From: a virus | Virus record (IMG/VR): IMGVR_UViG_3300032240_000148 | Location: 1-46,055 of that record | Strand: one strand, 5' to 3' | Length of the DNA stretch: 46,055 nucleotides | Shown: one piece after another, positions 38,669-44,742 of the stretch | How the letters are laid out: every line of letters starts with the position of its first letter | Position numbering within the stretch: position 1 is the stretch's first letter | Position numbers and translations under genes: made by a program | Notes under the pieces: generated by a model | What the model was told of the DNA's origin: nothing | Seen by the model: the letters and a program-made list of their open reading frames with translations, nothing else | Database searches by the model: none

Positions 38669-38820
38669 ATGAGTTTGAAGAAGTACTTAAAGCTAGACCT
38701 GATTTGACCCGTGAAGATTTGTATGATATAATAGATATAATGGACTTCAATGAAACATTACTTGAGGCAGCCAATAAATTCTATCCACTTAATAAAGGAA
38801 CCGGAGATTGCGCAGCTTAA
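38665..38820 (+). CDS. Small acidic protein with TTG start (51 aa)
   Basis: Starts at TTG (38665), eight bases after GAGGAG, and reads NEFEEVLKARPDLTREDLYD onward, ending with TGDCAA. Charged helices with no motif. The TTG shares bases with the upstream TGA, as in coupled genes. The end overlaps the TTG start of the polymerase gene by 13 bases. Confidence 0.6.
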   Translation: MNEFEEVLKARPDLTREDLYDIIDIMDFNETLLEAANKFYPLNKGTGDCAA

Positions 38821-39980
38821 TCTTAGATGTAGAAACAACTATAAGCAACAAAGGCAATCCATTTGATGAAAGGAATAAACTCTGTTATGTTGGTCTCTAT
38901 AGCGATAGTCAGCATTACCTTTTTGATATTGATTATAGCGGAAGTCCTAACCGACAACGACTTGACGATATACAAAGATACATTGACAGCCACGATACTA
39001 TTGTTGGCTTTAACATCAAGTTTGACTTGCATTGGATAAGACGATATGGAATTAATATTGTGGGCAAACGTGTTTGGGACTGTCAGTTGGTACATTATAT
39101 ACTTACACAACAACAAAATCCCTATCCAAGTCTTAATGGTGTCGCTGAGTATTATGGTTTGGGTAACAAGCTTGATGTTGTTGCTAGTGAATATTGGGGC
39201 AACAATATCGATACCACGGAAATCCCTAGAGATGTTCTTGAGGAATATCTTATAGGTGATTTGCATTTAACGCAAAAGGTGTATGAGAAACAACTAGAAG
39301 AATTTGCGTCTCTCGCAAAGTCTACACAGCGGTTAATTAGTTTACATAACCAAGACCTACTGGTCTTACAGGAGATGGAATACAATGGCATACTCTTTGA
39401 TGAAGAGCAATGTAATAAACTTGGTAATGAACTTGAAGAACAAATTAAAAAGATTGATGAACTACTTTATGATTACCATAACCTTCCTGAGTTTAATCCT
39501 TCTAGCACTGAACATATCTCTTCTTTACTATATGGCGGTAGCTTTACTATCCGTAGAAGAGAAACTGTGGGAGTGTTCAAGACTGGTACTAGAGCGGGCC
39601 AACCTAAAGATAGATGGTTCGAACATAAGATTACTTATGAAAGAATGGTTACACCAATTAAAGGATCTGAACTAGAGAAAGAAGGATTCTATTCTGTAGA
39701 TGATCAAACGTTAAAGAGTTTGAAGTTTAGAACTAATAAAGCACGTGAGCTTGTGGAGCTCATCTTAGCAAGAGCAACACTAATGAAACGACTCACTGCT
39801 TATTACCAAGGACTACCAGACTTAAGAACTAAAATGAATTGGCCTGTAGGTAAACTACATGGTGTATTGAATCAATGTGTTGCTAAGACAGGAAGACTAT
39901 CGTCTACTAAACCTAACTTACAAAACTTTGATGGAGAAATTAAACAACTATTTGGGAGTAGGTATGCTATTACAAGCTGA
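38808..39980 (+). CDS. DNA polymerase I family, N-terminal part: 3'-5' exonuclease and start of polymerase
   Basis: 390 residues from a TTG (38808) with AAAGGA nine bases before it. The proofreading exonuclease has Asp7, Glu9 (LDVETT), Asp73 (NIKFDLH) and Tyr147-Asp151 (EYLIGDLH), a DEDDy set. Then thumb-like helices and the strand TGRLSSTKPNLQN (361-373), which precedes motif A in family A polymerases. The frame then ends at a TGA. The rest of the polymerase follows in another frame (39964-40683), overlapping by 17 bases. It looks like a split or frame-shifted polymerase. Confidence 0.88.
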   Translation: MRSLILDVETTISNKGNPFDERNKLCYVGLYSDSQHYLFDIDYSGSPNRQRLDDIQRYIDSHDTIVGFNIKFDLHWIRRYGINIVGKRVWDCQLVHYILTQQQNPYPSLNGVAEYYGLGNKLDVVASEYWGNNIDTTEIPRDVLEEYLIGDLHLTQKVYEKQLEEFASLAKSTQRLISLHNQDLLVLQEMEYNGILFDEEQCNKLGNELEEQIKKIDELLYDYHNLPEFNPSSTEHISSLLYGGSFTIRRRETVGVFKTGTRAGQPKDRWFEHKITYERMVTPIKGSELEKEGFYSVDDQTLKSLKFRTNKARELVELILARATLMKRLTAYYQGLPDLRTKMNWPVGKLHGVLNQCVAKTGRLSSTKPNLQNFDGEIKQLFGSRYAITS

Positions 39981-40683
39981 CGCAAAAGCTTTAGAGTGGG
40001 TCTGTGCTACATACCTTTCTCAAGATGAAACTGCTATAAAGGAGATATGGGATGGAACTGATCAGCATAGCGATAATCAACTTAGGTTTGGGCTTCCTTC
40101 TAGGCTCATTGCTAAGACATTTGTTTTCAGACTCATCTACGGAGGTAGTGCTTACAGTTATGCTCATGACGTTAATTTTACTGGTGTATCTACATCTGAA
40201 TCTTTCTGGCAAAATGTTATAGATGAGTTCTATAAAAAGTATAATGGGTTAGCAAAGTGGCATAAGTTAATTGTCGATCAAGCCATTCGGGATCGCCAAC
40301 TAACTATGCCTACGGGTAGAGTTTATAAGTATGAACCAGAAGTAAAGTATGGTAAAGTCAAATGGCCTCGCACGAAAATCTTAAACTATCCAGTACAAGG
40401 ATTAGGTGCAGACCTGATGGCAATAGCAAGAGTGTCTTTAGCCAATAGGCTTAAAGATGTAGCAGGAGTTAAACTTATTAATACTGTTCATGATTCGATA
40501 ATACTTGACTATGATGAGAAAGTATGCGATAATAATAGTATAGTAAGTTTAGTTGATAAGTGTTTTACGGATATTCCAACTAACTTTAAGAAGTTGTTTG
40601 GAGTAGATTTTAACCTTCCTATGCGGGTCGAATGTCAAGTTGGACCTAACTGGGGTAACATGGAGATAGTTAATGTTAATTAA
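39964..40683 (+). CDS. DNA polymerase I family, C-terminal part: palm and fingers
   Basis: 239 residues if started at the ATG 39964, which has GGGAG five bases before it. Motif A is LLQADAKALEW (Asp6), motif B KTFVFRLIYGG (Lys51, Phe55, Tyr59), motif C NTVHDS (His176, Asp177). These are the catalytic residues for DNA synthesis and belong to the protein started at 38808. Phe55 is at the place of E. coli Pol I Phe762. Motif A begins exactly at this ATG, so translation of the second half separately or a shift of frame would each give a useful enzyme. Confidence 0.87.
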   Translation: MLLQADAKALEWVCATYLSQDETAIKEIWDGTDQHSDNQLRFGLPSRLIAKTFVFRLIYGGSAYSYAHDVNFTGVSTSESFWQNVIDEFYKKYNGLAKWHKLIVDQAIRDRQLTMPTGRVYKYEPEVKYGKVKWPRTKILNYPVQGLGADLMAIARVSLANRLKDVAGVKLINTVHDSIILDYDEKVCDNNSIVSLVDKCFTDIPTNFKKLFGVDFNLPMRVECQVGPNWGNMEIVNVN

Positions 40684-42123: not shown

Positions 42124-42489
42124 ATGATCAATAATTGGGTTGTAAAAGCATTTCTAGGATTAGTAATTATTATTAATCTGTTTTGGATTGGACTAATCAT
42201 TGATAAGTTGGTCGCTCAAGATTGGCGATACTTACACTACAAATACAACGAGAATGCCATTGTCACTATCTCTAATGTTGATTGCTTTCTTCCGGAACTT
42301 CAAGGTCCTTATCCTTGGGCAGCGGTAGCAACAAGAATTGATGGTGAAAGGTTGTTAGGATGTTACAATCACGAAGGTGATAACATTGTCATTCAATGGT
42401 GGAAGGGTGATAAAAGTGTGTTTAATGCAGACCTCTTTAAACTTGATCCTAACTTAGATAAACTTTATAAAACTAAACCCACAGTATAA
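42124..42489 (+). CDS. Membrane-anchored hypothetical protein (121 aa)
   Basis: 121 residues with one N-terminal hydrophobic helix (about 7-28: VKAFLGLVIIINLFWIGLII), then a polar, aromatic region (WRYLHYKYNENAIVTISNVD). The helix without cleavage site suggests a membrane-anchored, periplasm-facing protein (N-in by charge is uncertain). An unusual G-rich ribosome binding site (CGGGGGCGA, four bases before ATG) is present. It overlaps the HNH gene by one base. Confidence 0.66.
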   Translation: MINNWVVKAFLGLVIIINLFWIGLIIDKLVAQDWRYLHYKYNENAIVTISNVDCFLPELQGPYPWAAVATRIDGERLLGCYNHEGDNIVIQWWKGDKSVFNADLFKLDPNLDKLYKTKPTV

Positions 42490-42848
42490 TGGCTGAGTGG
42501 ACCGAAGGTAGACGTAAGTCTTTTATTACTAGTGTATTAAGAAGTGGCTATCGTAGATGGCCTCCTAAGTATGAAACACTTAAAGAAGCACAAACAGGAA
42601 AGAAAATCAATGAGAAAACTAAAAGACTCGCAATGCACTACAAGTGTAAGAAATGCAAAGAAGACTTTCCTGCTACACAAATTCAAGTCGATCATATTAA
42701 ACCTGTGGTTGATAGTAAACAGGGATTTAAGACCTGGGATGTTTTCATCGACAGGCTCTATTGCGAGAAAAAGAACTTACAAGTCTTATGCAAAACATGT
42801 CACTCTGAGAAAACCTTAAAAGAAACAAAACAAAGGACTAAGAAATGA
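42489..42848 (+). CDS. HNH endonuclease
   Basis: 119 residues. Zinc ribbon CKKCKED with CKTCHS, and the catalytic core IQVDHIKPVVD, then NLQVLCKTCHSEKT, the classic HNH with zinc. It cuts DNA. In this place, between exonuclease and oxygenase, it may act as a recombination/resolving nuclease like T7 gp3, but it could also be a free-standing homing endonuclease. It is not inserted in a gene. Confidence 0.85.
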   Translation: MAEWTEGRRKSFITSVLRSGYRRWPPKYETLKEAQTGKKINEKTKRLAMHYKCKKCKEDFPATQIQVDHIKPVVDSKQGFKTWDVFIDRLYCEKKNLQVLCKTCHSEKTLKETKQRTKK

Positions 42849-43987
42849 ATACAGTAGAGTTATTTAAAGATAATGGTTATGTCCATTTAAAGGACTTTCT
42901 ACCTTTACATACTTGTGAAGAACTAACTACAGAACTTAAAAGACTAGTAGCAGAGAATAAAACAGTTAATGATCCTCAATGTCCTTTATCTGAAGCAGTA
43001 CATGGTGCAGAGGCTTTTGATAGACTACTTGAATATCTAACACCTTACTTTGAAAAAGCTAGTGGACTTAAATTATTCCCTACCTATTCCTATGCTAGGT
43101 TATATGACACTAATGGTGAGGAATTAAAACTACATCGTGATCGTCCTGCTTGTGAAATTAGTGCTACTATTACACTAGGGTTTGAAGGAGAAGTATGGCC
43201 TATCTATATGGGTGATGCTGAAGATAAGTCAGGTTCATCTGAAATTAAAATGGAAGTAGGTGATGCTGTAATGTATCGTGGTATGGATAAGTATCACTGG
43301 CGTGAACCCTATACTAAAGGTAAATGGCAAGCACAAGTGTTTGTACACTATGTAGACCAAGATGGTCCTCATGCTGAGTGGAAGTATGACAAACGTGAGT
43401 CTCTAGGTATAAGTAAAACAGAACCTATAAACCAACAATTTGATGTGGCTTATGTAATAAAGAAAGCAGTATCAGAGTCTTTTTGTAATAATCTTATTAA
43501 AGAGTATTCTAAAGATGAAGTAGAAAAAGAACAACCTTTTATAGGTGAAGGTAGAGATCCTAATGTAAACATTAATCTTGACATTAGAAATGTATTAAGA
43601 CTTCCTCTACCTCAAAACCAGGGTATAGGTGCTACTCTTACTTCAAGTGCTTTGAACATTAATCATCAGATTTGGAAGTATGATATAACACACTCTAATC
43701 AAACAGAGTTTCTTATGTATGATGTTAACGGTAAGTATGAAGCACATGTTGATACCTTCCATCAACTTAGTGATGAAACTCGTAAACTAACAGCATTAGT
43801 TTTTCTTAATGATGACTTTGAAGGTGGTAAGTTTTATATTATAAATAGCCATGAAAAGATTTATCCACAACAAGAAAAAGGTGACATACTTGTATTCCCT
43901 TCTTTTATGGTGCATGGTGTAGAGCCAGTAACAAAAGGTAAACGTTATACAGTAGTAACATGGATGGTCGGTCCATACTTTAAATAG
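42845..43987 (+). CDS. Tandem 2OG-Fe(II) oxygenase (two domains)
   Basis: 380 residues. Domain 1 (about 1-175) has LHRDRPA (His97, Asp99) and YHWREP (His151), and GDAVMYRG. Domain 2 (about 195-380) has YEAHVDTFH (His301, Asp303), GGKFYII, GDILVFPSFMVHGVEPVTKG (His357) and RYTVVTW (Arg367), a complete prolyl-hydroxylase-like set. The first domain lacks a clear C-terminal Arg for 2-oxoglutarate. It hydroxylates an unknown target, perhaps a protein, nucleotide or cell-wall component. ATG overlaps the HNH stop by four bases. Confidence 0.82.
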   Translation: MNTVELFKDNGYVHLKDFLPLHTCEELTTELKRLVAENKTVNDPQCPLSEAVHGAEAFDRLLEYLTPYFEKASGLKLFPTYSYARLYDTNGEELKLHRDRPACEISATITLGFEGEVWPIYMGDAEDKSGSSEIKMEVGDAVMYRGMDKYHWREPYTKGKWQAQVFVHYVDQDGPHAEWKYDKRESLGISKTEPINQQFDVAYVIKKAVSESFCNNLIKEYSKDEVEKEQPFIGEGRDPNVNINLDIRNVLRLPLPQNQGIGATLTSSALNINHQIWKYDITHSNQTEFLMYDVNGKYEAHVDTFHQLSDETRKLTALVFLNDDFEGGKFYIINSHEKIYPQQEKGDILVFPSFMVHGVEPVTKGKRYTVVTWMVGPYFK

Positions 43988-43995
43988 GAGATAGA

Positions 43996-44742
43996 ATGAG
44001 TAAAATATTACTATTAGATATTGAAATGGCACCAAACGTAGCACACGTGTGGGGTATTTGGGATCAGAACATTGGCATCAATCAGTTACAAGAGTCATCT
44101 TATGTTATGTGTTATGCAGCTAAATGGCTAGGTGATAAGAAGATGATGTTTGACTCTGTTAAGAAGTCTGGTGATAAGAAGATGTTAGCTGGTATACATA
44201 AGCTTCTAGACGAAGCTGATGCAGTAATACACTACAATGGTAAACGCTTTGACATACCAAGTCTTAATAAAGAGTTTCTATTACATAATATGTTTCCTCC
44301 AGCACCGTTTAAAGAGATTGACTTACTGACAGTAGCTAAAGGTAGATTTAGATTTGTATCTAACAAATTAGACTACGTAGCACAGTCATTAGGTTTAGGT
44401 AAGAAGACTGAACATAGTGGTCATGAGTTATGGGTACAATGTATGGCAGGTATTCCTAAAGCTTGGAAGCTAATGGAAGAGTATAACAAGAACGATGTTA
44501 TCCTTCTAGAAAAGGTTTATGAACGTTTTAAACCTTGGATTAAGAATCACCTTAATCGTAACCTAGTTGAAGGTACTGACCTATGTTGCCCTACTTGTGC
44601 TTCTAAGAACTTCCAACGTCGTGGCTTTAATATGACAGCGGCAGGTAAATATCAACGATATCAATGTAGAGCTTGTGGTAACTGGTTTAGAGATAATAAG
44701 AATCTTAAGCCTAAAGGCTCAACAAAACTTGTAAATGTTTAA
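43996..44742 (+). CDS. RNase H-like DEDD exonuclease with C-terminal zinc ribbon
   Basis: 248 residues. LLLDIEMAP (Asp8, Glu10), IHYNGKRFDIPSLN (Asp86) and YNKNDVILLEKVYE (Asp166) are the DEDD residues of a 3'-5' exonuclease (RNase_H_2/PolB-like). Residues about 195-235 are a zinc ribbon (CCPTCASKNFQRRGF, then CRACGNWFR), the type seen in transposases and phage nucleases. Ribosome binding site AGGAG. It may process DNA or repair ends in replication. Confidence 0.85.
   Translation: MSKILLLDIEMAPNVAHVWGIWDQNIGINQLQESSYVMCYAAKWLGDKKMMFDSVKKSGDKKMLAGIHKLLDEADAVIHYNGKRFDIPSLNKEFLLHNMFPPAPFKEIDLLTVAKGRFRFVSNKLDYVAQSLGLGKKTEHSGHELWVQCMAGIPKAWKLMEEYNKNDVILLEKVYERFKPWIKNHLNRNLVEGTDLCCPTCASKNFQRRGFNMTAAGKYQRYQCRACGNWFRDNKNLKPKGSTKLVNV

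Follow-up and report, generated by a model that had tools for sequence, protein, structure and literature searches.

What does a DNA polymerase gene encode when its reading frame changes immediately ahead of catalytic motif A: one protein made by recoding, no functional protein, or two proteins? The question is raised by the window, by which we mean the whole 46,055-nt stretch of viral DNA analyzed here (IMG/VR record IMGVR_UViG_3300032240_000148). An N frame of 390 amino acids runs from a TTG to a TGA at 39978-39980, and a C frame, +1 relative to it and overlapping it by 17 nt, encodes 239 amino acids counted from its ATG and ends at a stop codon at 40681-40683 (Table 1). The C-part begins MLLQADAKALEW, and a GGGAG precedes its ATG by 5 nt. 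A sequence-only reading of this DNA had pointed to the two frames, the TGA, the separate ATG and the GGGAG, and all of these are where it had placed them. In profile searches, N residues 276-374 matched positions 43-132 of the Pfam DNA_pol_A profile and the C-frame ORF matched positions 153-380, while the N-part also matched the exonuclease family PF01612. Distributed over two chains, the locus has what identifies a family A DNA polymerase: PF00476, motifs A (D..E), B (R...K) and C (HD), and a 3'-5' exonuclease. It is part of a replication module: primase- and helicase-like genes precede it and a 5'-3' exonuclease-like gene follows. Downstream of the polymerase, inspection by eye also picked out an HNH-like protein (42489-42848), a large product similar to a 2-oxoglutarate oxygenase (42845-43987), and a protein that looks like a 3'-5' exonuclease and ends in a zinc-finger-like tail (43996-44742).

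Table 1. Features of the split polymerase locus, in window coordinates.
Feature	Position	Strand	Remarks
Polymerase N subunit	38808..39980	+	3'-5' exonuclease with thumb and first part of palm; begins at TTG, ends at TGA
Polymerase C subunit	39964..40683	+	fingers and remaining palm; motifs A, B, C; own ATG
17-nt gene overlap	39964..39980	+	from C ATG to N TGA; common to 48 distinct sequences including the window
Shine-Dalgarno-like GGGAG for C subunit	39954..39958	+	within N gene; strength compared with internal ATGs
Motif A codons DAKALEW	39979..39999	+	unbroken in window; broken at same site in 25/166 distinct relatives
Motif B region RLIAKTFVFRLIYGG	40102..40146	+	sequence motif
Motif C HDS	40489..40497	+	sequence motif

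We consider it likely, with a probability of roughly 85%, that the locus encodes a family A DNA polymerase truly divided into two genes and two subunits, in which the C-part is made from its own Shine-Dalgarno and ATG, probably coupled to termination of the N-part, and the two chains assemble. Ribosomes would end the N-part at TGA 39978 and initiate the C-part at ATG 39964 from the GGGAG, probably through termination-coupled re-initiation, and the chains would then come together around the active site, with the cut just ahead of the strand that bears the motif A aspartate. The case for two genes is made by the genes themselves, by their conservation and by the predicted fold of each half. The 48 distinct relatives with the same overlap (window included; 46 under a different de-duplication) all retain the TGA, the ATG and a strong Shine-Dalgarno, with a mean of -6.8 kcal/mol at the C start compared to -1.7 at 887 internal ATGs. 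The alanine codon whose last base forms part of the TGA is always GCT (48 of 48), compared to 318 of 523 other C-gene alanine codons, although these 48 relatives are not independent sequences. The strong Shine-Dalgarno at the C start, together with an N stop kept through the invariant GCT, fits independent initiation of the C-part, likely coupled to termination. Re-initiation giving two subunits had been proposed from the sequence, and the conserved start, Shine-Dalgarno and stop support it, as do relatives in which the genes are separated.

We surveyed those relatives in two stages, for which all counts are lower bounds, since several homologue lists comprised only the best 80 matches. Two viral-contig scans (with C- and N-part queries), together with phage records, yielded both parts at 101 distinct loci, a single one of which, HMO-2011, was unsplit. 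In the larger set of 180 distinct related C-part sequences, 159 polymerases were split, 16 lay on contigs that lack the N region and 5 were continuous and outgroup-like (HMO-2011, RHph_N37, HTVC033P, CRP-3 and L313), so that among the matches listed 159 of the 164 distinct sequences with both parts on the contig show the split. Cultured phages with the split are MEP401/402, ICP2, VP41s3 and Alcaligenes phage QDWS535. Looking for the same split in related phages had been suggested as a check, and it was amply found; a two-part polymerase had also been called unusual, which holds in general but not within this lineage, where it is the rule and is already published for MEP401/402.

The spacing of the two genes ranges from -17 nt to 3.6 kb: 46 of the 159 have the 17-nt overlap, 6 have other overlaps, 6 have gaps of 0-50 nt, 55 of 51-300 nt and 46 of more than 300 nt. 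The gaps may hold nothing, small acidic ORFs (which had no family match in family searches), an R67-DHFR-like ORF, HNH genes or, in the 3.6-kb case, a methyltransferase. Overlap and gap forms are interleaved on trees, and across relatives both frames are conserved and the catalytic residues are invariant. In close relatives of the window, the N-part ends just past ..LFGSRY.. and the C-part begins M(x)LLQADA or MSLIQADA. A further break site is seen in L233, L234, L254 and L276, whose N genes stop short at ..GRLSSSKP/SSSRP/SSNKP and leave about 1 kb to the C gene.

Structure prediction places the cut more precisely. The C-part alone was modeled by AlphaFold with high confidence (pLDDT 92, pTM 0.89), and its model aligned to Bst Pol I residues 648-876 with Z 23.1 and an rmsd of 2.0 over 215 aligned residues. 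The N-part alone (pLDDT 81, pTM 0.57) aligned to Bst Pol I from residue 314 to 643-652 with Z of about 16 and a high rmsd over its full length, and its exonuclease domain scored better against NrnC/RNase D chains. In these alignments of predicted models, the two halves jointly cover the Bst large fragment, and their end points place the cut just before the motif A strand (its aspartate is presumably Asp653 of Bst Pol I), as had been read from the sequence. The last ~37 residues of the N-part average below 60 in pLDDT; this tail would be completed by the C-part, or its low confidence may be a mere effect of alignment depth.

The split itself is not new. The polymerase of MEP401 and MEP402 (OM43 phages, Zobellviridae) has been described as split, with an intron guessed as the cause (PMC10580990). 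Like the window, these phages have one ORF with the exonuclease and the first PF00476 part and a second with the PF00476 remainder, cut at the same point before motif A, and their C-part is 66-67% identical to that of the window; they differ in having a 77-aa ORF between the halves, where the window has its overlap and no insert. Vibrio phage ICP2 also has a split family A polymerase (NC_015158 gives it as a joined CDS), but its cut lies about 15 residues earlier, after PNLQN(I)SN, and an HNH gene between the halves may be present or absent. A single origin of all split polymerases was rejected by the AU test (p-AU 0.001, on trees with long branches), which together with the earlier ICP2-type cut points to at least two splits. 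Searches with the C-parts of QDWS535 and ICP2 found no further loci related to either. Essential replication genes in two pieces, with an endonuclease nearby in some, are also known elsewhere: one paper describes split gp43A/gp43B of T4-related phages, which co-purify with polymerase activity, and an active split NrdA of Aeh1 (PMC2988022). Those products assemble; gp43 is however a family B polymerase and NrdA a reductase, whereas the window has a family A enzyme cut at motif A.

Among the alternatives to two subunits, the production of one polypeptide by programmed frameshifting in the overlap, for instance +1 at AGC TGA C, fares best, but we regard it as improbable. The frames are +1 apart, the TGA is followed by C, and recoding seems to occur a few codons downstream in relatives (see below). 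RF2-type +1 sites consist of CTT TGA with a Shine-Dalgarno close upstream; in the window the TGA is not preceded by CTT and lies ~20 nt from the Shine-Dalgarno, whereas relatives L252 and L256 do have CTT TGA G. The sequence-only reading had considered RF2-type frameshifting a poorer fit because a +1 jump at the TGA would leave the motif A strand one residue short, and we agree on both points (SRY-AITS-D compared to MLLQA-D). In addition, the ATG and Shine-Dalgarno are conserved in overlapping relatives, and relatives with genes between the halves could not make a single chain in this way.

An intron, as suggested for MEP401/402, or an intron remnant, is still less likely. Group I introns do occur at other sites in this polymerase gene, the C gene being broken outside motif A in 5 of 172 sequences (L180, L291, L306, L309 and L312). 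An insert in motif B of L180 (L180:5100-5770) is group I intron-like (RF00028, E 1e-6, below the Rfam gathering score), as is one at NYPV^QG in L291 (L291:3426-4200; Rfam E 1e-4, below gathering score); L306, L309 and L312 are broken at the site of L291 and are intron-like by similarity alone. Between the two polymerase genes, L151, MEP402 and L134 gave no group I intron match in narrow searches of this gap, and there was none in wider searches, which were insensitive (one missed the intron of L180). The -17 and -1 forms leave no room for an intron, which excludes one from the window. In ICP2_2013_A_Haiti, which lacks the HNH gene, N ends and C begins at the same places and the C start keeps a Shine-Dalgarno, which speaks against splicing in ICP2.

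That the gene has decayed, with replication by another polymerase, is about as doubtful as an intron: breaks do fall within an essential-looking gene, in the window and in relatives, but both frames are conserved, the catalytic residues are invariant and the C genes of relatives are under purifying selection. Least credible is an assembly or sequencing indel, which had been offered as an alternative. This is a metagenome-derived record in which a single-base change near 39960 would fuse the frames, but we reject an indel because the identical 17-nt junction recurs in 48 distinct sequences from many metagenomes, the split is present in cultured phages, and whole genes lie between the halves in other relatives.

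With two subunits as the preferred reading of the window, the relatives also bear on how such a split could arise. An HNH gene of the phrog_3322 type lies in the gap in 11 of 166 distinct window-type relatives, and 155 gave no match to the same HMM (among the matches listed); the window itself has no endonuclease between its halves. The motif A codons may have been a homing site for endonuclease genes, where insertion would have broken the polymerase gene and the downstream half would then have acquired its own start; in the lineage of the window no endonuclease would remain, leaving overlapping genes. For the window, such an origin is suggested by the sequences of its relatives. By reading, L067, L122, L152, L154, L155 and L157 carry part of the C start a second time, ahead of the HNH gene or what is left of it, which looks as though a cassette had taken the place of the gene's beginning. 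A near-consensus sigma70 promoter (TTGACA or TTAACA, 17 nt, TATAAT) was seen by eye directly before the HNH gene at L122:3204-3240 and L040:2510-2545, and L263 and L254, which have no phrog_3322-type match, carry other ORFs in the gap that read as HNH-like.

In 25 of the 166 distinct relatives (among the matches listed), the C gene is itself broken inside the motif A codons, between the aspartate and the tryptophan after its glutamate (D-x-x-x-L-E-W). The 166 were reached after leaving out L130 (short N), L069 (stop in the given range), and L143 with other rows that were unsplit, of another family or of ICP2 type; the unsplit L147, L148 and L314 were excluded from the interrupted set. Eight interruption sizes occur: -1 (L040, L067, L122), +1 (L004; L252 and L256), +2 (L152, L240, L265, L299, L304, L306), +4 (L153), +6 (L154, L157, L250, L259, L260, L283, L286, L312), +7 (L263), +8 (L155) and +10 (L254, L275). 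Seven of the 25 derive from one metagenome, 3300020045. The trait requires at least 18 changes on the tree; a 166-row protein tree was built without L306 and L312 (second break), from a row set that differs from that of the interruption count, and a second tree omitted L150 (branch length 10) and L004. Exact-pattern scans found at least 221 loci, of which at least 9 code for this polymerase interrupted at motif A, all in contigs already in the set. Interruptions are found in 10 of the 11 relatives with the phrog_3322-type HNH gene and 15 of the 155 without it (Fisher p 1e-8, ignoring kinship).

In the pairs tested, the interrupted genes are under purifying selection. In six same-allele pairs with unsaturated dS, the frame downstream of the interruption has dN/dS of 0.04-0.15, compared to a median of 0.18 for uninterrupted C-gene pairs; the same-allele-size pairs L254/L275, L154/L259, L240/L265 and L260/L283 are saturated. 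The Shine-Dalgarno of the start just upstream of the interruption averages -11.2 (n=25), compared to -4.8 in uninterrupted relatives (n=140). By reading, a stop codon immediately follows the last in-frame codon in 17 of the 25, often right after a leucine codon. Translation from a downstream start would be an alternative to recoding, but in 19 of the 25 the C frame contains no ATG, GTG or TTG from the preceding stop to the glutamate codon; products from the starts found in the other six (L122, L153, L155, L252, L254 and L256), or from later ones, would have no motif A aspartate, which disfavors this explanation. Reading of TAG as sense was not favored either: the N gene of L154 ends in TAG, and most N genes are open to their usual end.

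We lean, with more confidence than doubt, towards the motif A codons being an endonuclease landing hot spot at which the downstream half would survive by ribosomal recoding, a reading built on sequence comparison. Ribosomes would start, translate about ten codons and then slip or hop across the interruption, in forms that run from an RF2-like CTT TGA to hops over an in-frame stop, for example CTT TAG CTT in L260. Other junctions read CTT TAG CCC in L154 and A AAG in L040. No recoding stimulators were identified at the interrupted junctions, and five +6 alleles carry CCC where a matched leucine landing codon would be expected. The nearest known arrangement is T4 gene 39-mobA-gene 60, which unites an HNH gene with a split enzyme whose second half contains an untranslated stretch, the take-off codon being followed by a stop (PMC3014915; PMC5009743). 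The interrupted relatives resemble this layout, but their interruptions are of -1 to +10 nt and several alleles, with bypass only proposed, compared to a 50-nt gap and matched GGA codons in gene 60; the window, whose motif A is uninterrupted, does not. The interruptions may have made the site resistant to the endonuclease, with hopping or frameshifting as the possible means of decoding them.

The window thus belongs, as an ordinary member, to a split-polymerase lineage that has been published but not explained, and is an uninterrupted form within this series; most of the new matter lies in the interruptions of its relatives, of which we recognized no description for split polymerases in searches of the open-licence PMC literature. 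For the point left open in MEP401-type phages, the window argues for two genes and no intron, at least in the overlapping form, and for a family A polymerase that occurs naturally as two chains, with the cut at the strand of the active site. Bypassing was called apparently unique to T4 gene 60 in a 2010 review (PMC3014915), and a 2016 review stated that no natural in-frame stop hop was known (PMC5009743). If the recoding of the interrupted relatives is real, several independent sites of programmed bypass or frameshifting would be available in a single essential gene, together with close uninterrupted controls.
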